From the NCBI GenBank assembly GCA_902515405.1, contig CABXUS010000006.1:1-60886 (forward strand): a stretch of DNA of 60,886 bases, written 5' to 3'. Shown piece by piece: positions 8,121 to 41,709 of this stretch. Both the position numbers and the translations under genes were made by a program. Source of the stretch: an uncultured Bacteroidota bacterium (GTDB lineage Bacteria; Bacteroidota; Bacteroidia; Flavobacteriales; Flavobacteriaceae). The stretch's first letter is position 1. The number at the start of each line of letters is the position of its first letter. The notes beneath the pieces were generated by a model, which was not told the origin of the DNA, searched no databases, and saw only the letters and a list, made by a program, of their open reading frames with translations.

Positions 8121-9425
8121 ATGAATAAGATTGTAGCTATAGTCGGAAGGCCTAATGTAGGTAAATCAACTCTTTTTAATAGGTTAATTAAAAGAAATGA
8201 AGCAATTGTTGACTCTGAAAGTGGAGTGACCAGAGATAGACATTACTCACTTTCTGATTGGAATGGAAAAGTTTTTACTTTAATTGATACTGGAGGTTAT
8301 GTGATTGGAGGTGATGATACTTATGAAAAGGAAATTGATAATCAGGTAATGATTGCATTAGAGGAATGTGATAAAGTAATTTTTGTAGTAGATGTTAATG
8401 ATGGTATTACATCAATTGATAAAGAAATAACAAAATTACTTCACAAGTCAAGTAAAGAAGTTATTATAGCTGTTAATAAGGTTGATAAAACAACGATGAC
8501 TAATGAATCGTTGGAGTTTTATTCATTAGGTTTTGATAAGCTATTTGGCATTTCAGCAATAAATGGAAGTGGAACTGGTGATTTATTAGATGAATTAGTA
8601 AAAGATTTTGAAATCAATGAAAAGAATGATAATGATGATATACCATCTTTTGCTGTTGTAGGTAGACCAAATGCAGGAAAATCTTCTTTTATAAACACTC
8701 TAATTGGAGAAGACAGAAATATTGTAAAAGATGAACCAGGAACAACTAGAGATAGTATTGATACTTATTATAATAAGTTTGGATTAAATTTTAAACTAAT
8801 TGATACAGCAGGAATTAGAAAAAAATCAAAAATTAATACTAATCTAGAGTTTTATTCAGTAGTTAGGTCAATTAAGGCAATTGAAAACTGTGATGTATGT
8901 TTATTAATTATGGATGCTACAAGAGATTTTGATTCTCAATTAAAAAATATTTTTTGGCTCGCTCATCGAAGAAATAAAGGGATTGTTATTTTGGTAAACA
9001 AGTGGGATTTGGTTGAAAAAGAAAATAAATCAACAATTGAATTTGAAAGAAAAATCAGAGATGAAATAAAGCCATTTATCGATTTACATATAATTTTTAT
9101 TTCTTGTTTAAAGAAACAAAGAATTTTGAAGTCTTTAGAATTTGCAGTTGAAACATATGAAAATAGATCTAGAAAGATAAAAACTAGTAGGTTAAATAAT
9201 GACTTATTGCCAATAATTCAAAAAAACCCGCCTCCCTCAAACAAAGGTAAATTTGTTAAGATTAAATATTGTAGCCAAATTCCATCTCATTATCCTCAAT
9301 TTGTTTTTACATCAAGCCTTCCTCAATATATGAAAGAGCCTTACAAGAGATTTTTAGAAAATAAAATAAGGAAACTCTATAACTTTACTGGTTGTCCAAT
9401 TAATATTTACAGTAGAAAGAAATAA
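8121..9425 (+). CDS. der: GTPase Der (EngA)
   Basis: Double-GTPase factor for 50S ribosome assembly. Its 434 residues contain two G domains, the first with GRPNVGKST (residues 8-16) and NKVD, the second with GRPNAGKSS (about 182-190), DTAG and NKWD. A C-terminal KH-like domain ends in the usual PINIYSRKK-type tail. It is the second gene of the era-der operon. Its TAA stop touches the convergent merR stop, and the two sit in a hairpin. Confidence 0.97.
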   Translation: MNKIVAIVGRPNVGKSTLFNRLIKRNEAIVDSESGVTRDRHYSLSDWNGKVFTLIDTGGYVIGGDDTYEKEIDNQVMIALEECDKVIFVVDVNDGITSIDKEITKLLHKSSKEVIIAVNKVDKTTMTNESLEFYSLGFDKLFGISAINGSGTGDLLDELVKDFEINEKNDNDDIPSFAVVGRPNAGKSSFINTLIGEDRNIVKDEPGTTRDSIDTYYNKFGLNFKLIDTAGIRKKSKINTNLEFYSVVRSIKAIENCDVCLLIMDATRDFDSQLKNIFWLAHRRNKGIVILVNKWDLVEKENKSTIEFERKIRDEIKPFIDLHIIFISCLKKQRILKSLEFAVETYENRSRKIKTSRLNNDLLPIIQKNPPPSNKGKFVKIKYCSQIPSHYPQFVFTSSLPQYMKEPYKRFLENKIRKLYNFTGCPINIYSRKK

Positions 9426-32140: not shown

Positions 32141-33354
32141 TGAATTATAGTGAGACGATTGATTGGCTAGAAAATATACCAACTTCGTTTGATTCAAATT
32201 ATAATAACTACGAATTAAAATTAAATTCAATTAAATCTTTTCTGGATTTTTTAGGAAATCCTCAAGACAACTTAAAGACTATTCATGTTGGAGGCACTAA
32301 TGGTAAAGGATCTACATGTCATATAATTTCTTCTATTTTACAAGAACATGGATTTTCAACTGGAATTTTTTCATCACCTCACTTATACGATTTTAAAGAA
32401 AGAATAAAAATAAATTCAAATTATATAGATGAAAATTTTATTGTTGATTTTATAAATGATAATTATGAATATATATTAAAAAGTGACTTGTCTTTTTTTG
32501 AAATTAGTTTTGCAATTTCTCTTTGTTATTTTCGATTAAAAAAACCAGAATATTCAATTATCGAAGTAGGACTTGGAGGAAGACTTGATGCAACGAATAT
32601 TATAAAACCTTTAATTTCTATTATTACTAACATAGGGTATGATCATAAAAAATTTTTGGGAGATAATTTAGTTGATATTGCCAAAGAAAAAGCAGGAATT
32701 ATCAAGACACAAACCCCGATTATAGTTGGTGAATCTAATAACATAATAAATAAAGTTTTTGAAGGTATAGCATCAAAATTAAACTCTAAATTGTATTATG
32801 CTAATCAAAGAAAACAGAAATACAAGAGTGATTTAAAAGGATTATATCAAAGTAAAAATATCAATACAGCTATTGAAGCTATTCAAAAAATAAATTCATT
32901 AGAAATTAACGAAGAAAAGCTATTAAAAGGAATAAAAAATGTGAGTATTAATACCAAATTAATTGGAAGATGGCAAATTATTAAAAAAAATCCTAATATA
33001 ATTTTTGATGTTGCTCACAATTTAAATTCCTTAAAATTAATTTTTGAACAATTAAAAAATATTGATGGTGAAATAAGAGTTGTTTTTGGAACTTTGAATA
33101 AAAGGCATCAGCTTAAATGTCTTGAAATATTTCCTAAATCATATAAATATTATTTATGTTCCCCAAATGTAAAAAGGGCATTGAGCATAAATATTCTAAG
33201 AAATCATTCAAATAAATTAGGTTTAAAAAATCAAAGTTTTGATACTGTAAAACAAGCATTTGATAAGGCCTTAAAAGATTCTAGTCAAAATGATACTATT
33301 ATTGTAACAGGCTCCTTTTTTGTTATTTCAGATCTCAAGAATAATTTCTTTTAA
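32140..33354 (+). CDS. folC: Folylpolyglutamate/dihydrofolate synthase
   Basis: Adds glutamate to dihydropteroate and to folates. The 404 residues show the Mur-ligase-like P-loop GGTNGKGSTCH (about residues 51-61), FSSPHLYDFKERI, EVGLGGRLDATNI and the C-terminal FDVAHN motif. It is translationally coupled to nhaD. Its last 27 bp are antisense to the end of thrC, the longest convergent overlap in the window. Confidence 0.95.
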   Translation: MNYSETIDWLENIPTSFDSNYNNYELKLNSIKSFLDFLGNPQDNLKTIHVGGTNGKGSTCHIISSILQEHGFSTGIFSSPHLYDFKERIKINSNYIDENFIVDFINDNYEYILKSDLSFFEISFAISLCYFRLKKPEYSIIEVGLGGRLDATNIIKPLISIITNIGYDHKKFLGDNLVDIAKEKAGIIKTQTPIIVGESNNIINKVFEGIASKLNSKLYYANQRKQKYKSDLKGLYQSKNINTAIEAIQKINSLEINEEKLLKGIKNVSINTKLIGRWQIIKKNPNIIFDVAHNLNSLKLIFEQLKNIDGEIRVVFGTLNKRHQLKCLEIFPKSYKYYLCSPNVKRALSINILRNHSNKLGLKNQSFDTVKQAFDKALKDSSQNDTIIVTGSFFVISDLKNNFF

Positions 33355-34617
33355 TATTTTAAAATTATTGATTATACTAATTGTATTTATTTTTCTTTTA
33401 TTGGTTTTTATAGATGTACCAAATGGACTATTAATAATAGACTTGATAGTTTTCTCAAATTTTATAGGATGTGCAGTTTCAAGAAAAACTCCAGTATATT
33501 TTTTTTTCTCTAAATCAAAAAACTTTTTTAATCCTAACAAACCAACTGAGCCGTGTGGGTCTAATAAATAATTAAATGAATTATAATTTAGCAGAATTTC
33601 ATCTCTTGTTTGCTTATCCTTAAATGAATATGAAACAAACTTATTTTTTAAATCTTTAAAATTATTATTAAATAATTTCATAATTCTAGGAAAATTACTA
33701 GGATCATTTACGTCCATTGCATTTGAAATCGTCCTTTTCGTTTTATAAGGCTTGTAAACTTGATTAACCAAAAACCTAGGTATTGTATCATTAATATTAG
33801 TTGATGCTATATACTTTTCTACAGGTAATCCCATTTTATTTGCTACAATTCCCGCACAAATATTACCAAAATTTCCACTAGGAACAGAAATTGCTAATTT
33901 TTCATTTATGTTATTATTTAATAATTCTCTAAACATTATAAAATAGTAAATAATTTGAGGAAGCCATCTTCCTATATTGATTGAATTAGCAGAATTTATA
34001 TTCAATTCTTTAAGAACATCATGATCAATGAGTAATCTTTTGACTAAACTTTGACAATCATCAAAACTTCCATCAATTTCAATAGGGTATATGTTTTCTC
34101 CCAAACTTGTGATTTGTTCTTCTTGAAATTTTGTGATTTTATTTTTCGGATATAATATCACAACATTAAATTTATGCATACGAAAAAAACTTTTGGCTAC
34201 AGCTGCGCCGGTATCTCCGGATGTAGCAACAATAATTGTAGATTTTTTCTTATTATTTGAATTAAAAAGATTTAAGGAATTTGCAAGAAAACTTGCACCT
34301 ACATCCTTAAAAGCTAAAGTTGGTCCATGAAAAAGTTCAAAAGAATAAAAATTACCTAATGGAACTAAATTAAATTCAAATGAAATGGATTTTTCTAATA
34401 TTTTTATTAAGTCTGAATTTTTAATTTCATCTCCAATGAAATCTTTCATAACCAAAAATCCTATTTCAATATTACTTAAACTTTTTACACTTTCTAAAGC
34501 ATTTTTATCAAGTTTAGTAATTTTTTTAGGAAAAAATAATGAACCATCTTTTGCAATACCTTTACTTACTGCATTACGAAAGTTTGATTTTAAATTATTT
34601 TTTAAGCTATAATACAT
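33328..34617 (-). CDS. thrC: Threonine synthase
   Basis: PLP enzyme that converts phosphohomoserine to threonine. The 429 residues include the PLP-lysine motif GPTLAFKDVGASF (Lys104), IIVATSGDTGAA and the SVPSGNFGNICAG phosphate loop. It is the last gene of the metY-metX-thrA-thrB-thrC operon, starting 1 bp after the thrB stop. Its 3' end overlaps folC by 27 bp. Confidence 0.96.
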   Translation of the reverse strand: MYYSLKNNLKSNFRNAVSKGIAKDGSLFFPKKITKLDKNALESVKSLSNIEIGFLVMKDFIGDEIKNSDLIKILEKSISFEFNLVPLGNFYSFELFHGPTLAFKDVGASFLANSLNLFNSNNKKKSTIIVATSGDTGAAVAKSFFRMHKFNVVILYPKNKITKFQEEQITSLGENIYPIEIDGSFDDCQSLVKRLLIDHDVLKELNINSANSINIGRWLPQIIYYFIMFRELLNNNINEKLAISVPSGNFGNICAGIVANKMGLPVEKYIASTNINDTIPRFLVNQVYKPYKTKRTISNAMDVNDPSNFPRIMKLFNNNFKDLKNKFVSYSFKDKQTRDEILLNYNSFNYLLDPHGSVGLLGLKKFFDLEKKKYTGVFLETAHPIKFEKTIKSIINSPFGTSIKTNKRKINTISIINNFKILKEIILEI

Positions 34618-34618
34618 T

Positions 34619-35545
34619 CTAAATTATTACTTTGACACCTTCATTATTGATTTTTGAAATATAATACTTTACTAGTATTCTTTTTCTTTCGTAATGTTTT
34701 TGTATTTCTTTTTCAATACAAATTGCATCCTCAAAGTTCTTAGTTAATGAAAACATCGATGGTCCTGAACCAGATATACCAAATCCAATAGAATTATTTG
34801 AATATGCAATTCTTTTTAATTTATCGAATTCAGGAATTAAAACAGATCTGTATGGTTCAATTAATAAATCATTACAAGACCTTTTAATTAAATCATAATC
34901 ATCATGAAAAAGACCAGTTATTAAGCCAGCTAGGTTTGCTGATTGTTGAATGGCTTCTGAAAAATCAACTTTGCGCTTAATTAATTTTCTAGAATCTTTG
35001 GTTTTAATTTCAATTTGTGGATGTATAATTGAAATAAATAAACTATTAGATGTATTGATTCTAATTATATCAAGTGTTTTATTATCCCTAACAATTGTTA
35101 TACCACCATAAATAAGGGGAGAGATATTATCAGCGTGCGCGGTATCACTACAAATTTTTTCTCCTTCTAATGCAAACTGAATCAGTTGTTTTTTAGTCAA
35201 TGGATTTCCCAATAGTTTATTTACCCCAAAAACACTCCCAGCTGAGCTTGCAGCACTACTCCCAATTCCGCTACCAGGTTTTATTTTTTTATCAATTTGA
35301 ATTCTAAATCCACATTCATTAAAATTTAAAAATTCAAGCATTTTAATTACTGAAATACCTGCAGCATTTTTTTGAGGATTTTCAGTTAAATCATATTCTG
35401 AATTGATTTTTATGATAATTTTTTTTTCTTCAATTTTAGTTATAATCATTTCATCTCCAATACTCTCTAAACAAAGACCTAGTATATCAAACCCACATGA
35501 TAAATTTGCCACACTTGCTGGACAGAAAATTTTTATTGAATTCAT
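34619..35545 (-). CDS. thrB: Homoserine kinase
   Basis: A GHMP-family kinase that phosphorylates homoserine for threonine synthesis. The 308 residues start with FCPASVANLSCGFD, and the ATP-binding motif PGSGIGSSAASSAG lies at about 91-104. The C-terminal GHMP glycine loop GFGISGSGPSMF is present. Only 6 bp separate it from thrA and 1 bp from thrC. Confidence 0.97.
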   Translation of the reverse strand: MNSIKIFCPASVANLSCGFDILGLCLESIGDEMIITKIEEKKIIIKINSEYDLTENPQKNAAGISVIKMLEFLNFNECGFRIQIDKKIKPGSGIGSSAASSAGSVFGVNKLLGNPLTKKQLIQFALEGEKICSDTAHADNISPLIYGGITIVRDNKTLDIIRINTSNSLFISIIHPQIEIKTKDSRKLIKRKVDFSEAIQQSANLAGLITGLFHDDYDLIKRSCNDLLIEPYRSVLIPEFDKLKRIAYSNNSIGFGISGSGPSMFSLTKNFEDAICIEKEIQKHYERKRILVKYYISKINNEGVKVII

Positions 35546-35551
35546 TTTATT

Positions 35552-38008
35552 TTAATGATGATATCTATAATTTGATATTCTAATTATATCACCGAAAATA
35601 CCAGATGCTGTTACTTCAGCGCCTGCTCCTGCTCCTTTTACTATCAATGGTTGATTAAAATACCGGTCAGTATAAAATAGTACAATATTATCACTTCCCT
35701 CTAAATTGTAAAAACTATGATTTTTATCAACCTCTTTTAAAGATACTTTTGCTTTACCATTTTTATATTCAGCAATATATTTTAATCTTTTTTCTTTTGA
35801 TTTTGCACTTTCTAAAATCTTATTAAAAAAACTATTATTTTTTTCAATTGAATTAAATAGTTCCAAATTATTTTTTGTTTTAAAACATTCTTTAGGGAGA
35901 AATTGTTTATTTTTTATATCATCTAATTCAAATTTTAACCCACTCTCTCTACATAAAATTAAAATTTTTCTTGCAACATCAATTCCACTTAAATCAATTT
36001 TTGGATCGGGCTCTGTATATCCTAAGTTAGATGCTTGCTTTACTACATCACAAAATGTATTTTTTCTTTTAAAAGTATTAAAAATAAAATTTAAACTTCC
36101 GGACAAGACAGCTTGGATTGATAAAATCTTATCACCAGAAGCTCTAAGATTTTTTAGTGTATCTATTATGGGTAAACCTGCACCAACATTTGTCTCAAAT
36201 AAAAAGGGAGCATCATATTTTTTTGATAAATTTTTAAGATTTAAATATTCCTTTAATGAACCAGAACATGCAATTTTATTACAAGTAACAACTCCAATAC
36301 TTTCAAGCAAGTATTTATCATATTCTTTAGAAATCGATATAGATGCAGTATTATCAACAAAAATACTATTCCTGAAATTTAATTTTAAAACTTTTTTATA
36401 AAATTTTTCACTATTGGCATTTTCTCCTTTTTTTAATGCACTTTTCCATTTGCTTAAGTCTATACCATTAGAATTAAAAACCATTTTTCTTGAATTTGAA
36501 AGAGCTCTAACTCTAATTCTAAGACTTAAATTATTTTCTAAATAAGATTTTTGTTTTCTGATTTGCTCAATTAATGAACTACCAACATTTCCAACTCCAA
36601 CTATAAATAAATTTAACTCTTTTATGTTTTTTTCAAAAAACCTTTCATGAAGTGTATTTACAGCTTTTTTAATATCTTTCTTTTCAATAGCAGCAGTAAT
36701 ATTTCTTTCTGAGGAGCCTTGTAGTATTGCTTTAACATTTATATTATTACTACCTAACACACTAAACATTTTACCACTAATACCTTGGTGTTTTTTCATT
36801 TTATCTCCAACAAGAGTTATTAGACATTGGTTTTTTTCAACATTAATTTCTTTTAAAATATTATTTCTAATTTCATTTTCAAATTCTTCATTTATTAACT
36901 TCTCAGCTTTTGAATAATCATACATATTAATTCCTAAACAAATTGAGTGCTCTGATGAAGCTTGAGTAGCCATCACAATATTTATTCGATTATGATATAA
37001 TATTTCATATAATCTTTTCAAGTATCCTGGTTCACCAATCATTCCACTTCCTTCAATATTTAACAATGCAATATCTTCAATATGACTAATACCTTTTACT
37101 ATAGAATTAGATAAATTGTTTACTAATCCAATCTTCGTTCCCTTGTATTTAGAATTAAAAGTATTTTTTATAAAAATTGGAATTTTTTTATCCATTGCGG
37201 GTTGAATAGTTGGAGGATAAATAACTTTTGCTCCAAAATGAGATAATTCCATTGCTTCTTCATAGCTTAAATTATCAATTGGAACAGCTTGTTTAACAAT
37301 TTTTGGATTTGCTGTATATAACCCATTCACATCGGTCCATAGAGTTATTTTTTTTGAATTTGTGATATTTGCAATAATACTAGCGGTGAAATCTGAGCCA
37401 CCCCTTCCAAGATTTGTTATTTTATTGTTCTGATCAGATGCAATAAAGCCTGGCATAATTAGTCTTAAAAAGTTATTTTCATTACTAAATTTTTCCCAGT
37501 TTTTATAAGTTTTTTTATAGTTTATTAAAACTTTAATAAAGCTATTTTTTTCAACACTAATAATTTTTGAGGAATCTAAGTAGTTAATATTTAATTTATA
37601 ATTTTTTGATATTTCATAGATAATGTATGATGATAATTTTTCACCAAATGCTAAAATTTTATCACTTATATTTTGATTAAATTCACCTAAATTATAGATA
37701 CCATCCAAAATATTTTCAAGGTCAATAAATAGTTTTTGAACCTCAGTTAATATTTTTACTTGAAAATTAATGTCAGATAAATTTCTAATAATAGTAAAAT
37801 GATTAGATTTTATTTTTTTAAATACTTCTTTGTATTTAAGATTTTTAATTGATGCAAGTTTACCCGATTGTGAAATTAAATCGGTAGTTTTTCCAATAGC
37901 TGAAACTACAATTATTGTTTTATCATCAAAAGTCTCAATTAGTTTTAAAACTTTTTTTATGTTCTTTGAATTTGATATGGATGAACCTCCAAACTTTATA
38001 ACATTCAT
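35552..38008 (-). CDS. thrA: Bifunctional aspartokinase / homoserine dehydrogenase
   Basis: Catalyses the first and third steps from aspartate to homoserine. The 818 residues contain an aspartokinase domain (VIKFGGSSISN at residues 3-13; GRGGSDFTASI), a central ACT regulatory region (about 310-460) and a homoserine dehydrogenase domain from about residue 465 (FIVGVGNVGSSLIEQ), with FETNVGAGLPI and the active-site DLSGIDVARK. It starts 8 bp after the metX stop. Homoserine made here feeds both MetX and ThrB. ACT-based feedback by threonine is likely from the family. Confidence 0.97.
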   Translation of the reverse strand: MNVIKFGGSSISNSKNIKKVLKLIETFDDKTIIVVSAIGKTTDLISQSGKLASIKNLKYKEVFKKIKSNHFTIIRNLSDINFQVKILTEVQKLFIDLENILDGIYNLGEFNQNISDKILAFGEKLSSYIIYEISKNYKLNINYLDSSKIISVEKNSFIKVLINYKKTYKNWEKFSNENNFLRLIMPGFIASDQNNKITNLGRGGSDFTASIIANITNSKKITLWTDVNGLYTANPKIVKQAVPIDNLSYEEAMELSHFGAKVIYPPTIQPAMDKKIPIFIKNTFNSKYKGTKIGLVNNLSNSIVKGISHIEDIALLNIEGSGMIGEPGYLKRLYEILYHNRINIVMATQASSEHSICLGINMYDYSKAEKLINEEFENEIRNNILKEINVEKNQCLITLVGDKMKKHQGISGKMFSVLGSNNINVKAILQGSSERNITAAIEKKDIKKAVNTLHERFFEKNIKELNLFIVGVGNVGSSLIEQIRKQKSYLENNLSLRIRVRALSNSRKMVFNSNGIDLSKWKSALKKGENANSEKFYKKVLKLNFRNSIFVDNTASISISKEYDKYLLESIGVVTCNKIACSGSLKEYLNLKNLSKKYDAPFLFETNVGAGLPIIDTLKNLRASGDKILSIQAVLSGSLNFIFNTFKRKNTFCDVVKQASNLGYTEPDPKIDLSGIDVARKILILCRESGLKFELDDIKNKQFLPKECFKTKNNLELFNSIEKNNSFFNKILESAKSKEKRLKYIAEYKNGKAKVSLKEVDKNHSFYNLEGSDNIVLFYTDRYFNQPLIVKGAGAGAEVTASGIFGDIIRISNYRYHH

Positions 38009-38016
38009 AATGATAA

Positions 38017-38976
38017 TTATTTAAATATTTTTGAAATTGCTTTTTCTATTTTATTGAACTCTATAAGAAAAGCATCATGTCCATGATCTGATTTTATTTC
38101 ATAATAATAAATATCTTTTTTAATTTTTGAAAAGTAATCATAGCTTTTTTTTATATCAAAGTTTGGAAATAGTAAATCAGAGTCAATTCCTACAAGATGA
38201 ATTACACTAGTAATTTTTTTTATTAAACTTTGAAAATCTTTTCGATTTTTGTGTGTTACTCCAATAGTTGATAAAAGATTATTCATATGAAAGTATGAAT
38301 TTAGAGAAAAATTCTTTTTTAGTTTATTACCATGAAATTCGAGCCAATTAATGACTTCCATTTTATTATTTTTGGGATTGATATTAAAATTAAATCTTTT
38401 ATTTAATGATTTGGGGTTTCTGTATGTTAGCATGGCATGAACCCTGGCATCATTAATAGGATTTTTTGAATTAATAAGAATTAAATTTTGAAGGTAGGTA
38501 TTTGATATTAACCAATCAGACGATTTATAATCAGCTGCTAAAGGCACTAAATTCTTAAAATAATTTGGCTCTAATATTCCCATTTCCCAAACTAAACCGC
38601 CACCAATTGACCCACCAATTAAAGAATGAACTTTTTTAATTTTAAGTTTTTTTAACGTTTTGATAAATATTCTTGCAACATCATTTAAAACCCAATTTTG
38701 ATTAAAATCAAAGTCTTCCATACCATTTCCAGGTATATTAATACATATTACGCAAAATTTATTAGTGCATATCATTTTACTAGGACCAATTAAATTTTTC
38801 CACCAACCTTTGTCATTACCAGCTACGTTTGAGTTTCCTGTAAGTGAGTGATTAACAATAACTGTAGGACCTTCATTGATATCTAATCCAAATATTTGAA
38901 ATGATATATTAACTGAAATAATTTCACCCGATAAAAGCTCAAAATTTTTATGAAGAATATTTTTTAATTTGTTCAT
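38017..38976 (-). CDS. metX: Homoserine O-acetyltransferase
   Basis: An alpha/beta hydrolase-fold enzyme that acetylates homoserine for methionine synthesis. In 319 residues the nucleophile Ser123 lies in LIGGSIGGGLVW, the acid in VGIDSDLLFP, and the base His in SDHGHDAFL. NHSLTGNSNVAG is the oxyanion-side motif of the family. The protein is shorter than the about 370 residues of many MetX but in line with Flavobacteriia. It lies 19 bp downstream of metY. Confidence 0.93.
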   Translation of the reverse strand: MNKLKNILHKNFELLSGEIISVNISFQIFGLDINEGPTVIVNHSLTGNSNVAGNDKGWWKNLIGPSKMICTNKFCVICINIPGNGMEDFDFNQNWVLNDVARIFIKTLKKLKIKKVHSLIGGSIGGGLVWEMGILEPNYFKNLVPLAADYKSSDWLISNTYLQNLILINSKNPINDARVHAMLTYRNPKSLNKRFNFNINPKNNKMEVINWLEFHGNKLKKNFSLNSYFHMNNLLSTIGVTHKNRKDFQSLIKKITSVIHLVGIDSDLLFPNFDIKKSYDYFSKIKKDIYYYEIKSDHGHDAFLIEFNKIEKAISKIFK

Positions 38977-38995
38977 TAAAATGTAATATTCTAAT

Positions 38996-40270
38996 TTATA
39001 TATTTTCGAAAGCTTTAATCAAATCTTGTTTTAAATCCTCAATATTTTCTAACCCAACTGAAAGTCTTACTAAATCTTGTGAAACCCCAGTGTTTAATTG
39101 CTCACTTTCAGAAAGCTGAGAATGTGTTGTACTTGCTGGATGAATAATTAAAGATTTTGAATCGCCAATATTTGCTAGCAAAGAAAAAATAGTTGTATTA
39201 TCAGCAATTTTTTTTGCACTACTAAATCCACCTTTTGGCCCAAAAGTGATTAATCCGCTTTGCCCATTTGGAAGATATTTTTTTGATAGTGAATTATATG
39301 GACTTGATTTTAAACCAGGATAATTAACCCAAGAAATTTCTTCTCTTGATTCAAGCCAAGCAGCAAGCTCAAGTGCATTCTCACTATGTTTTTTCATCCT
39401 AACATCAAGTGTTTCAAGTCCTTGGATAATTTGAAATGAGTTAAATGGGCTTATAGCAGCTCCTATATCTCTCAATCCCTCAACTCTTACTTTTGCAATA
39501 AATGCAGCAGGTCCTAACGCATCATGATAGATTAGACCGTGATATCCAGCAGATGGATTTGTAAATTCAGGAAATTTACCGCTAGACCAGTCAAAGTTAC
39601 CAGCATCAATAATAGCTCCACCCAATGCAGTACCATTTCCATTTATATATTTAGTCAAAGAATATATAACTATGTTAGCTCCATGTTTTATTGGATTTAA
39701 AAGCGCAGGTGTTGCAACTGTATTATCAACCATTAATGGAAGATGATTTTTTTTCGATTCATCAGATATTTTTTCAATATCTAAAACATCTAACTTTGGA
39801 TTACCCATTGATTCAATAAAAAATAATTTAGTATTTTCTTTAACTGCCTTAGTAAAATTTTCTGGTTTACTTGGGTCTACAAAAGTTGTATGTATATCTA
39901 ATCTAGGTAGCATAACTTTAAACATGTTATAAGTTCCACCATACAAGCTATTAGATGCAACAATATGATCTCCACTTTTTAATAATGTTAATATTGCTGT
40001 TGATATTGCAGCTGTTCCTCCTGCAGTTGCAACAGCTCCAATACCTCCGTCCATTGCTGCTAATCGTTGCTCTAATACATCATTTGTTGGATTATTTAAT
40101 CTTGTGTAAATGTAACCGGGCTCAGATAATGCAAATAAATTAGCTGCATGATCTGAATCATTAAAAACATATGATGTAGATTGATACAGAGGAACAGCTC
40201 TTGTTCCTTGAGTTAAGTTTGTGTCATGACCAGCATGAAGAGCTTTTGTTGATAATTTAGTTTCTTCCAT
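38996..40270 (-). CDS. metY: O-acetylhomoserine sulfhydrylase
   Basis: PLP enzyme that makes homocysteine directly from O-acetylhomoserine and sulfide. The 424 residues show the Cys/Met-metabolism family motifs: YTRLNNPTNDVLEQRLAAMD, SLYGGTYNMF, VDNTVATP, and the PLP-lysine motif SLTKYINGNG (Lys about 206). It is the first gene of the metY-metX-thrABC operon, with a SAM-II riboswitch in its leader, so low SAM should raise expression. Confidence 0.97.
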   Translation of the reverse strand: MEETKLSTKALHAGHDTNLTQGTRAVPLYQSTSYVFNDSDHAANLFALSEPGYIYTRLNNPTNDVLEQRLAAMDGGIGAVATAGGTAAISTAILTLLKSGDHIVASNSLYGGTYNMFKVMLPRLDIHTTFVDPSKPENFTKAVKENTKLFFIESMGNPKLDVLDIEKISDESKKNHLPLMVDNTVATPALLNPIKHGANIVIYSLTKYINGNGTALGGAIIDAGNFDWSSGKFPEFTNPSAGYHGLIYHDALGPAAFIAKVRVEGLRDIGAAISPFNSFQIIQGLETLDVRMKKHSENALELAAWLESREEISWVNYPGLKSSPYNSLSKKYLPNGQSGLITFGPKGGFSSAKKIADNTTIFSLLANIGDSKSLIIHPASTTHSQLSESEQLNTGVSQDLVRLSVGLENIEDLKQDLIKAFENI

Positions 40271-40316
40271 AATATTTATATTTATACGTTTTCGGAAGAT
40301 TTGACAGTATATATTT

Positions 40317-40340
40317 GTGAAAAGCTATCTGCTTTAGCAC
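40317..40340 (-). promoter_or_regulatory. Alternative hairpin overlapping the SAM-II 3' strand
   Basis: On the minus strand GTG and CAC, then AAAGC and GCTTT, pair around the loop AGATA, with a small internal loop between the two helices. The 5' arm is the same GCTAAAGC segment that closes the SAM-II pseudoknot, so the two structures cannot coexist. It may be part of the expression platform. There is no T-run, so it is not an intrinsic terminator. Confidence 0.4.
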
Positions 40341-40380
40341 TTTTTTAATGAGGTTGCAATCAGTCAAATCGTTCCTCAAT
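40329..40380 (-). promoter_or_regulatory. SAM-II riboswitch upstream of metY
   Basis: On the minus strand, stem P1 is TGAGG (40378-40374) with CCTCA (40353-40349). The P1 loop holds the conserved GATTTGACTGATTGCAA, followed by an A-rich linker and the conserved GCTAAAGCAG 3' strand, which can form the H-type pseudoknot with the loop. This order and these conserved bases match the SAM-II (metA-type) class, known to bind S-adenosylmethionine and repress methionine genes. It lies about 58 nt before the metY ATG. Confidence 0.88.
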
Positions 40381-40387
40381 CGGGTTA

Positions 40388-40395
40388 CAAAAATA
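40388..40395 (-). promoter_or_regulatory. -7 box of the metY operon promoter
   Basis: The minus strand reads TATTTTTG, matching TAnnTTTG. A start point 5-7 nt downstream would place the 5' end of the message at the first bases of the SAM-II aptamer. No clear -33 TTG is visible. Confidence 0.5.
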
Positions 40396-40425
40396 AAATT
40401 ATTTTAATATTTATAAAATTTTTTA

Positions 40426-41709
40426 TTAAAAATTTTGATTCATTTTATTTTTTATTTGCTCTAAACATAAATTATCAATCCCCCCAACTAAAGTTTGTTT
40501 AACTCTTTTTTTGGATTTATATGATTTTTTCTTAATTGATTTGGATATTTCATTATATGCATCCCTAAATGATAACCCTTTCTCAATCATAAGGCTATTA
40601 AGATTGTCAACAGAAAAAATATATTTATAATTATTATTATTAAGAATATCATTCTTAATTTTAATTTTTTTAATTGATGATGAAAATATTTCTATACAGT
40701 TTTTAATTGTTTGTATAGCATCTATTATTTTACTTTTATAGATTTGCATATCTCTATGATATCCACTTGTCATATTTGTAGAGATAACATTAAACTCATT
40801 TGATAATGATTTAATTGTATTACATTTTGCCCTAATTAATTCAAATAGATCTGGATTTTTTTTATGAGGCATAATACTAGAGCCTGTCATTAAATCATTA
40901 GGAAATGAAATAAAATTAAGTTCAGTAGTCATATAAAAACATATATCTGAACAAAATTTTGATAAGGTTTCAGCTACTGATCCAATAGCAATTGCAACAG
41001 ATTTTTCCACCCTTCCTCTGCTCATTTGTGCAGAAACAACATTGTACTTTAAGGTTTCAAACCCTAATTCTTTAGTAGTAAAATTTCTATCGATATTGAA
41101 TGAACTACCATAGCCAGCTGCACTTCCAAGTGGATTTTGATTATTAATTTTGTAAGCCGTATTTAAATATAATATATCATCAATTAAGGATTCAGCATAA
41201 GCAGAAAACCATATCCCAAAAGATGAAGGCATAGCAACTTGTAAATGAGTATATCCTGGTAGTAATTTATTTTTATTTTTATTTGCAAGCATCATTAAAG
41301 TATCAAATAAATCTTTAATCAATTCTTTTATTATTAAAATTTCATCTTTAAGATAAAGCTGAGTAGCAACTAAAACTTGGTCATTTCTTGATCTTCCAGT
41401 GTGTATTTTTTTACCTACTTCCCCTAATTTTTCTGTTAAAATAAATTCGAGCTTAGAATGAATATCTTCAAATTGTTCTTCAATTTTAAATTCATTTTTT
41501 AAAATTTTATTTTTAATTGATTTAAGTTCTTTAATTAAAAGCTGACTCTCGTTTTTACTTATGATTTTTGTTTTGCTAAGCATTTTTGCATGTGCAATCG
41601 AAGCTGTTACATCATATTTAGCTAAGAATATATCACAGTTTCTATCATCTCCAACAGTAAATTCTTCAACTTTTTTATTCAAGATGTCTTCTTTATTCCA
41701 GAGTTTCAT
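40426..41709 (-). CDS. argH: Argininosuccinate lyase
   Basis: Splits argininosuccinate into arginine and fumarate, the last step of arginine synthesis. The 427 residues carry the fumarase/aspartase-superfamily signature GSSIMPHKKNPD (about residues 272-283), HTGRSRNDQV and GYTHLQVAMPSSFG. It is the last gene of the seven-gene arginine operon, 10 bp after argB. The upstream gene is argB rather than an argE-type deacylase. Confidence 0.97.
   Translation of the reverse strand: MKLWNKEDILNKKVEEFTVGDDRNCDIFLAKYDVTASIAHAKMLSKTKIISKNESQLLIKELKSIKNKILKNEFKIEEQFEDIHSKLEFILTEKLGEVGKKIHTGRSRNDQVLVATQLYLKDEILIIKELIKDLFDTLMMLANKNKNKLLPGYTHLQVAMPSSFGIWFSAYAESLIDDILYLNTAYKINNQNPLGSAAGYGSSFNIDRNFTTKELGFETLKYNVVSAQMSRGRVEKSVAIAIGSVAETLSKFCSDICFYMTTELNFISFPNDLMTGSSIMPHKKNPDLFELIRAKCNTIKSLSNEFNVISTNMTSGYHRDMQIYKSKIIDAIQTIKNCIEIFSSSIKKIKIKNDILNNNNYKYIFSVDNLNSLMIEKGLSFRDAYNEISKSIKKKSYKSKKRVKQTLVGGIDNLCLEQIKNKMNQNF

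Follow-up and report, generated by a model that had tools for sequence, protein, structure and literature searches.

What does a riboswitch of methionine metabolism control when genes of threonine synthesis follow in the same row? The question is raised by a 60,886-nt stretch of DNA (hereafter the window) from an uncultured member of the Flavobacteriaceae (assembly GCA_902515405.1, contig CABXUS010000006.1; genome G000), in which an S-adenosylmethionine (SAM)-II riboswitch precedes metY, metX, thrA, thrB and thrC on the minus strand. We propose that the riboswitch, with its own promoter, heads a single metY-metX-thrA-thrB-thrC unit, that SAM would lower translation of metY and at least partly that of the genes behind it, and that the unit of ~7.8 kb entered the lineage as one block in place of metY-metX-hom, which would have brought threonine synthesis under a methionine switch. 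Taken as a whole, we give this explanation even credence.

The preliminary description of the locus had read a SAM-II element ahead of metY and five genes separated by 1–19 bp, and both readings held up. The element matches RF01726 over the full length of the covariance model (positions 1–60 of 60, E 7e-12), and lies 53 bp upstream of metY (Table 1). Of three matches in the window that reach the gathering score, it is the sole riboswitch, and the contigs of G000 have no other RF01726 match. The metK gene of G000 carries no SAM-II and overlaps the preceding gene by one base. Successive gaps from metY to thrC measure 19, 8, 6 and 1 bp. MetY, ThrA, ThrB and ThrC all pass their curated NCBIfam cut-offs, and the metX product falls short of its own; adjacent on one strand and all above cut-off, thrA, thrB and thrC qualify as a thrABC operon. 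ThrA contains the Pfam domains AA_kinase, ACT_9 (in two stretches) and Homoserine_dh, and the 3′ end of thrC overlaps the convergent folC by 27 bp. A SAM-V or other tandem aptamer in the leader was considered and rejected: of nine matches with E no higher than 5 across 39000–41000, those at the leader were just RF01726 and a weak SAM_alpha (17.7 bits) on the same element.

Table 1. Features of the SAM-II locus, given as positions within the 60,886-nt window
Feature	Position	Strand	Basis or remark
Predicted promoter −7 box TATTTTTG	40388..40395	-	Bacteroidota type TAnnTTTG, 4 bp from aptamer
SAM-II aptamer (RF01726)	40324..40383	-	Covariance model, 71.5 bits, gathering 44
5′ aptamer strand GAUUUGAC, predicted anti-aptamer partner	40363..40370	-	Leader folds, alignment
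Alternative hairpin GUGCUAAAGC...GCUUUUCAC, would disrupt pseudoknot 3′ strand	40317..40340	-	Minimum-energy fold
Putative anti-aptamer strand GUCAAAUCUUCC in linker	40294..40305	-	Window −15.4 kcal/mol, p 0.003
metY, O-acetylhomoserine sulfhydrylase	38996..40270	-	TIGR01326 619.5 bits, cut-off 495.1
metX-like homoserine O-acyltransferase	38017..38976	-	Best family TIGR01392, 173.7 bits, under cut-off 500
thrA, bifunctional aspartokinase/homoserine dehydrogenase I	35552..38008	-	PRK09436 957.5 bits, cut-off 726
thrB, homoserine kinase	34619..35545	-	NF002288 347.7 bits, cut-off 194
thrC, threonine synthase	33328..34617	-	TIGR00260 255.7 bits, cut-off 167.1
Block of low identity to MED-G61, promoter to mid-folC, likely allelic replacement	32650..40480		Windowed DNA identity

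How unusual is this arrangement? SAM-II is present in 187 of 199 family genomes, and 110 distinct leaders, collected by a sequence pattern (up to 3 substitutions) and not by covariance model, precede metK (73), metY (25), metH (5) or genes that our script left unassigned (7). At 11 of 60 family loci, which were chosen by hand (top scorers, small genomes, spread) and do not give a random-sample rate, a full-length thrA of another type (30–35% identical) follows SAM-II on its strand, after metK and metX (L037, L042, L045, L053, L054, L056, L070, L080, L081, L083, L084); nine of these have metY in between, and some carry thrA fused to metX. As for thrC, it lies at most 30 kb from SAM-II in 7 of the 114 family genomes with both placed, and G000 alone has it downstream on the same strand, the six others having it on the other strand and upstream; these figures hold among the places listed, which cover 147 of the 187 SAM-II genomes and 150 of the 160 thrC genomes. 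Neither thrB nor thrC was found in the six features after metX at any of 66 named metX loci, several of them cut by contig ends and the records nearest to the window possibly absent from them. In a class-wide sample of 159 genomes, SAM-II occurs in 23 and a thrC match in 39; read by eye, the two are close only in G000 among the 11 genomes that have both. None of 33 pattern stretches on viral contigs was related to metX. In the genomes searched, it is thrB and thrC, not thrA, that are the unusual part behind SAM-II. The preliminary description had called the link of threonine supply to SAM an unusual logic, which is right for these two genes and does not apply to the aspartokinase/homoserine dehydrogenase gene.

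A protein regulator, MetJ, uses SAM as its co-repressor. The comparisons that follow draw on excerpts of the cited papers. In Alteromonadales, MetJ is predicted to control thrABC (PMC4239095); both systems place a SAM-responsive regulator over threonine genes, MetJ being a protein repressor at DNA and the window's element an RNA switch. In Bacillota, hom1 alone is under SAM-I, and hom1-thrC-thrB under T-boxes (PMC12452182, PMC11477304); the window likewise has a riboswitch over the homoserine/threonine branch but, unlike these systems, a single SAM element that heads both branches. SAM_alpha in Alphaproteobacteria precedes metY, metX, metA or hom-metXC (PMC4239095), a SAM-II control of homocysteine formation and homoserine dehydrogenase that resembles ours; unlike in the window, the excerpt on this other phylum reports no aspartokinase, thrB or thrC under SAM_alpha. 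RF01726 itself is the Bacteroidetes and marine long-loop class of SAM-II (PMC2864571), of which the window's aptamer is a full-length, high-scoring member, here with metY and thrABC behind it and with a candidate anti-aptamer strand that we describe from sequence only. The nearest counterparts are the metY-metX-hom loci of MED-G61 and its relatives (L195, L198, L200, L199, L196, L197), which have the same switch and the same first two genes and differ in encoding a homoserine dehydrogenase domain only, with aspartokinase, thrB and thrC not beside it; the three such genomes of the same genus share the argH and folC neighbours with the window. We found no report of SAM-II over thrABC in the open-licence papers searched. 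SAM elements over hom have been described and MetJ over thrABC has been predicted; thrB and thrC behind SAM-II occur just once in the searched set, probably acquired as a block.

Do the five genes form one transcription unit? We searched for TAnnTTTG, the promoter box of the Bacteroidota type. Of 73 metK leaders, 69 have it in the 50 nt that precede the aptamer (3.7 expected), as do 10 of 24 metY leaders (1.6 expected; one leader with less than 40 nt upstream was dropped) and all five metH leaders. On the operon strand of the window, boxes lie at the aptamer and within metY, thrA and thrC; a search of metX, where a separate promoter ahead of thrA would be looked for, found none. Stand-alone thrABC operons behind clpC have a box directly before thrA in two of three inspected copies (L150, L151), the third (L154) having a variant only. 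A simple pattern scan for terminators over 33000–41000 detected none in the leader or the intergenic gaps, in keeping with the preliminary description. Its one place, listed on both strands, falls within thrC (33958–33973), and the number of sites is what chance would give (2 found, 1.9 expected). Spacing and promoter scans fit, though they do not prove, a single metY-thrC unit.

How may the switch work? In the fold that we call A, the aptamer segment GGAACGAUUUGAC pairs with the linker strand GUCAAAUCUUCC and the 3′ aptamer strand with the next GCUUUUCAC (−24.7 kcal/mol, z −2.69; 3 of 200 shuffles were equally good). The pattern TAAAGCAG..GCTT is found in 22 of 25 metY leaders versus 12 of 73 metK leaders, and 24 of the 25 metY leaders have better anti-aptamer pairing than their dinucleotide-shuffled linkers (p<0.05). 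GTCAAA of the anti-aptamer strand is unvarying in all 23 aligned metY leaders (the alignment leaves out L135 and L143, which contain N), and the register of the helix is sharp, with 98.4% of cells paired versus at most 50.3% after a slide of 1–3 columns. When the aptamer was masked as if bound, the cost of opening the metY start rose by 2.9 kcal/mol on average, versus 0.02 in shuffled linkers (40 each), an effect reaching p<0.05 in 16 of 25 metY leaders; in the window the cost went from 4.0 to 7.6 kcal/mol. All these counts come from leaders that are partly related and not independent. A conserved alternative pairing that excludes the aptamer suggests a translational OFF riboswitch, and we favour control of metY translation, off with SAM. 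Without SAM, the linker would bind the aptamer's 5′ half and leave the metY start open; with SAM, the pseudoknot would form, and the freed linker would fold onto the start region and lower metY translation. Because the leader appears to act at the metY start, thrABC would respond to SAM only via translational coupling or polarity, which the shared message and short gaps would allow for metX as well.

Several observations weigh against this explanation. A second fold of the window leader, B, computed with more coding sequence and without constraints, retains aptamer stem P1 and a start hairpin at −23.1 kcal/mol; A and B are thus close in energy, which makes the state without SAM uncertain. No covariation was found in the anti-aptamer helix, six of its eight pairs never varying, and in L143 an altered aptamer strand (GTC for GAC) is uncompensated by the linker. 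In metK leaders the same anti-aptamer test is weaker (39 of 73 at p<0.05), and masking raised the start cost by more than 0.5 kcal/mol in 46 of 72 and lowered it in 13 of 72 (one leader dropped). The masked state alone was not clearly more closed than shuffles (median p 0.098), and the idea that the freed linker pairs directly with the start region was rejected as a general rule (p<0.05 in 2 of 25 metY leaders; window p 0.056). A scan for sigma-70-type promoters returned 64 sites versus 56.1 expected, near chance, which leaves room for an internal promoter, and short intergenic gaps do not prove coupling. Finally, only one genome, 72% complete (1.12 Mb in 48 contigs), is known to have the metYX-thrABC arrangement.

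Might the riboswitch leave threonine synthesis largely untouched? Class I aspartokinase/homoserine dehydrogenases are under threonine control at the protein level via their ACT domains. As ThrA keeps these domains, as each of the three thr genes starts with an ATG of its own, and as the leader looks translational and would act at the metY start, the switch may govern only metY, perhaps with metX, and thrABC on the same message may be translated independently and hardly respond to SAM. Coupled translation would suit the spacing of the three genes, which start 8, 6 and 1 bp after their upstream neighbours, and we find this alternative doubtful. Independence from the riboswitch could also come from a promoter inside metX that drives thrABC: promoter-like sites abound in such AT-rich DNA, and two of the three stand-alone copies inspected have a box of their own. 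The metX gene lacks TAnnTTTG and is separated from thrA by 8 bp, and we regard such a promoter as unlikely. Conversely, SAM-II might terminate transcription and so switch off the whole unit. According to excerpts of the sources, terminators are often predicted for SAM-II in Alpha- and Betaproteobacteria (PMC2258182), SAM-II of S. meliloti is associated with a terminator at metZ and with translational control at metA (PMC9373788), and that of Pelagibacter is stated to act on transcription (PMC5069961). The window leader has no terminator-like site in the simple pattern scan, which makes termination distinctly improbable. Control of thrABC by SAM is plausible. If SAM does lower thrABC expression, threonine supply and that of the common aspartate pathway would both be set, in a streamlined marine bacterium, by a single sensor of methionine status, and a cell at high SAM would have to depend on leaky repression or on threonine uptake.

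What do relatives hold at this site? The genus set comprised 23 genomes, none at least 90% complete, with SAM-II in 13 (10 over the cut-off) and thrC in 7. Behind the ten strong elements we found metY-metX-thrABC in G000, metY-metX-hom in G204, G207 and G217, and metY-metX followed by unrelated genes in G201, G202, G205, G211 and G213 or by a contig end in G200. The preliminary description had proposed to look for the window's gene order in relatives; what they have at the same site is argH-SAM-II-metY-metX-hom-folC (G204, G207, G217), and no thrC match was found in these three genomes (61, 82 and 57% complete). thrABC sits behind clpC in six genomes of the genus, and G200 has thrA there up to the contig end; clpC is followed in G204, G207, G215, G217 and G219 by the gene that elsewhere follows thrC, and in G149 by gcvT. 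No second aspartokinase-homoserine dehydrogenase or thrC was found in G000, whose clpC contig ends inside clpC and hides the usual place of thrABC. The three layouts in one genus (metYX-thrABC; metYX-hom; metYX alone with thrABC elsewhere) amount to a natural experiment on the gain and loss of an operon riboswitch.

How did the threonine genes come to lie behind SAM-II? We compared the window with the closest relative found, MED-G61 (G204), by identity in 300-bp intervals with at least 250 aligned bases. Both flanks are 93–99% identical, and identity is 63–86% from about 40.48 to 32.65 kb; the background is 94.0% over gyrA-clpC (5285 bases) and 98.5% over the lysC locus (4074 bases). In G204, thrB, thrC and most of the kinase part of thrA have no counterpart. 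The drop in identity relative to the flanks suggests that the unit was exchanged as an allelic block, in which promoter, riboswitch, metY, metX, thrABC and half of folC probably arrived together. In a tree of homoserine dehydrogenase domains, the window's ThrA groups with stand-alone ThrA (91/85), apart from the hom of this slot in both genera (88/76). These supports are under the starred level and come with a long-branch warning, so that the direction of the exchange is likely and not certain: the metYX-thrABC block likely replaced a metY-metX-hom allele that served the methionine branch only. Such an exchange would show one way for the pathway of an amino acid to arrive along with its regulation.

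Could the order of events be the reverse, with thrABC ancestral in the slot and MED-G61 holding the exchanged allele? The slot hom proteins share 49–60% identity with the window's ThrA over its homoserine dehydrogenase domain, and hom could therefore be a worn-down thrA. Yet MED-G61 metX and hom are closer to those of G207 and G217 (65–71% identical) than are the window's metX and ThrA domain (49–65%), and hom of both genera stands apart from the window's ThrA in the tree, albeit at the modest support given above; we think the reverse order improbable. An assembly artefact at the junctions might be suspected in a single, incomplete genome, but both ends run into sequence syntenic with MED-G61 (the argH side and the folC-nhaD-gltB side), thrC and folC converge cleanly and the genes have open reading frames, which makes an artefact very improbable. 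Replacement of metY-metX-hom by the window's block may have a parallel in a second genome pair, G207/G217 (L198, L200), whose arginine block is mostly 92–97% identical and whose sequence behind the SAM-II aptamer is 66–88% identical. The edge falls in the 3′ portion of the aptamer or directly after it (in L198, element 8585–8644 and drop from 8621), the aptamer's own conservation blurring its exact place. In a bolder and rather unlikely version, the SAM-II leader would mark a boundary of an exchangeable block: genomes of the genus would trade entire amino-acid units by homologous recombination, one end falling no more than about 160 bp from the aptamer, as in the two genome pairs, and G000 would thereby have moved from a layout without threonine genes to a threonine unit under SAM control.

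Some genomes may do without threonine synthesis. G149, G204, G207, G208, G214, G215, G217 and G219, and G004 of another genus, have no thrC match and are possible threonine auxotrophs; their completeness is 82–93% in G149, G207, G208, G214, G215, G219 and G004, 61% in G204 and 57% in G217. Behind metX, hom is kept in G004, G204, G207 and G217. The thrC of G202 (L153) comes in two pieces, each in an open frame of its own, and may be broken or reflect a sequence error.

Further variants of the leader were seen elsewhere. In three metK leaders (L032, L033, L035), an inverted repeat TTGCTTT...AAAGCAA flanks the anti-aptamer strand and ends immediately ahead of the start codon, possibly forming a sequestering hairpin. 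Weak SAM-II-like elements (34–42 bits, under the cut-off) lie at the metH start in L144–L149 (G215, G212, G201, G214, G205, G211), with a changed core GCTGCCTC, with TAAAACAG in five of the six, and with an ATG where the element ends on its 3′ side. In L144, L146, L147, L148 and L032, two neighbouring genes encode methionine synthase in separate parts (about 340 and 884–911 residues), and L043 has a single gene of 1221 residues. According to an excerpt, a 2007 survey found no species with both SAM-I and SAM-II (PMC2258182). Flavobacterium odoriferum (L214), F. saliperosum (L230) and Aquimarina sp. (L232) have both SAM-I (RF00162) and SAM-II, with SAM-II before metK; SAM-I occupies the gap before metY-metX-thrA in L232 (8389–8505) and, by position, lies before metH in L214 (14803–14908) and L230 (14777–14881).

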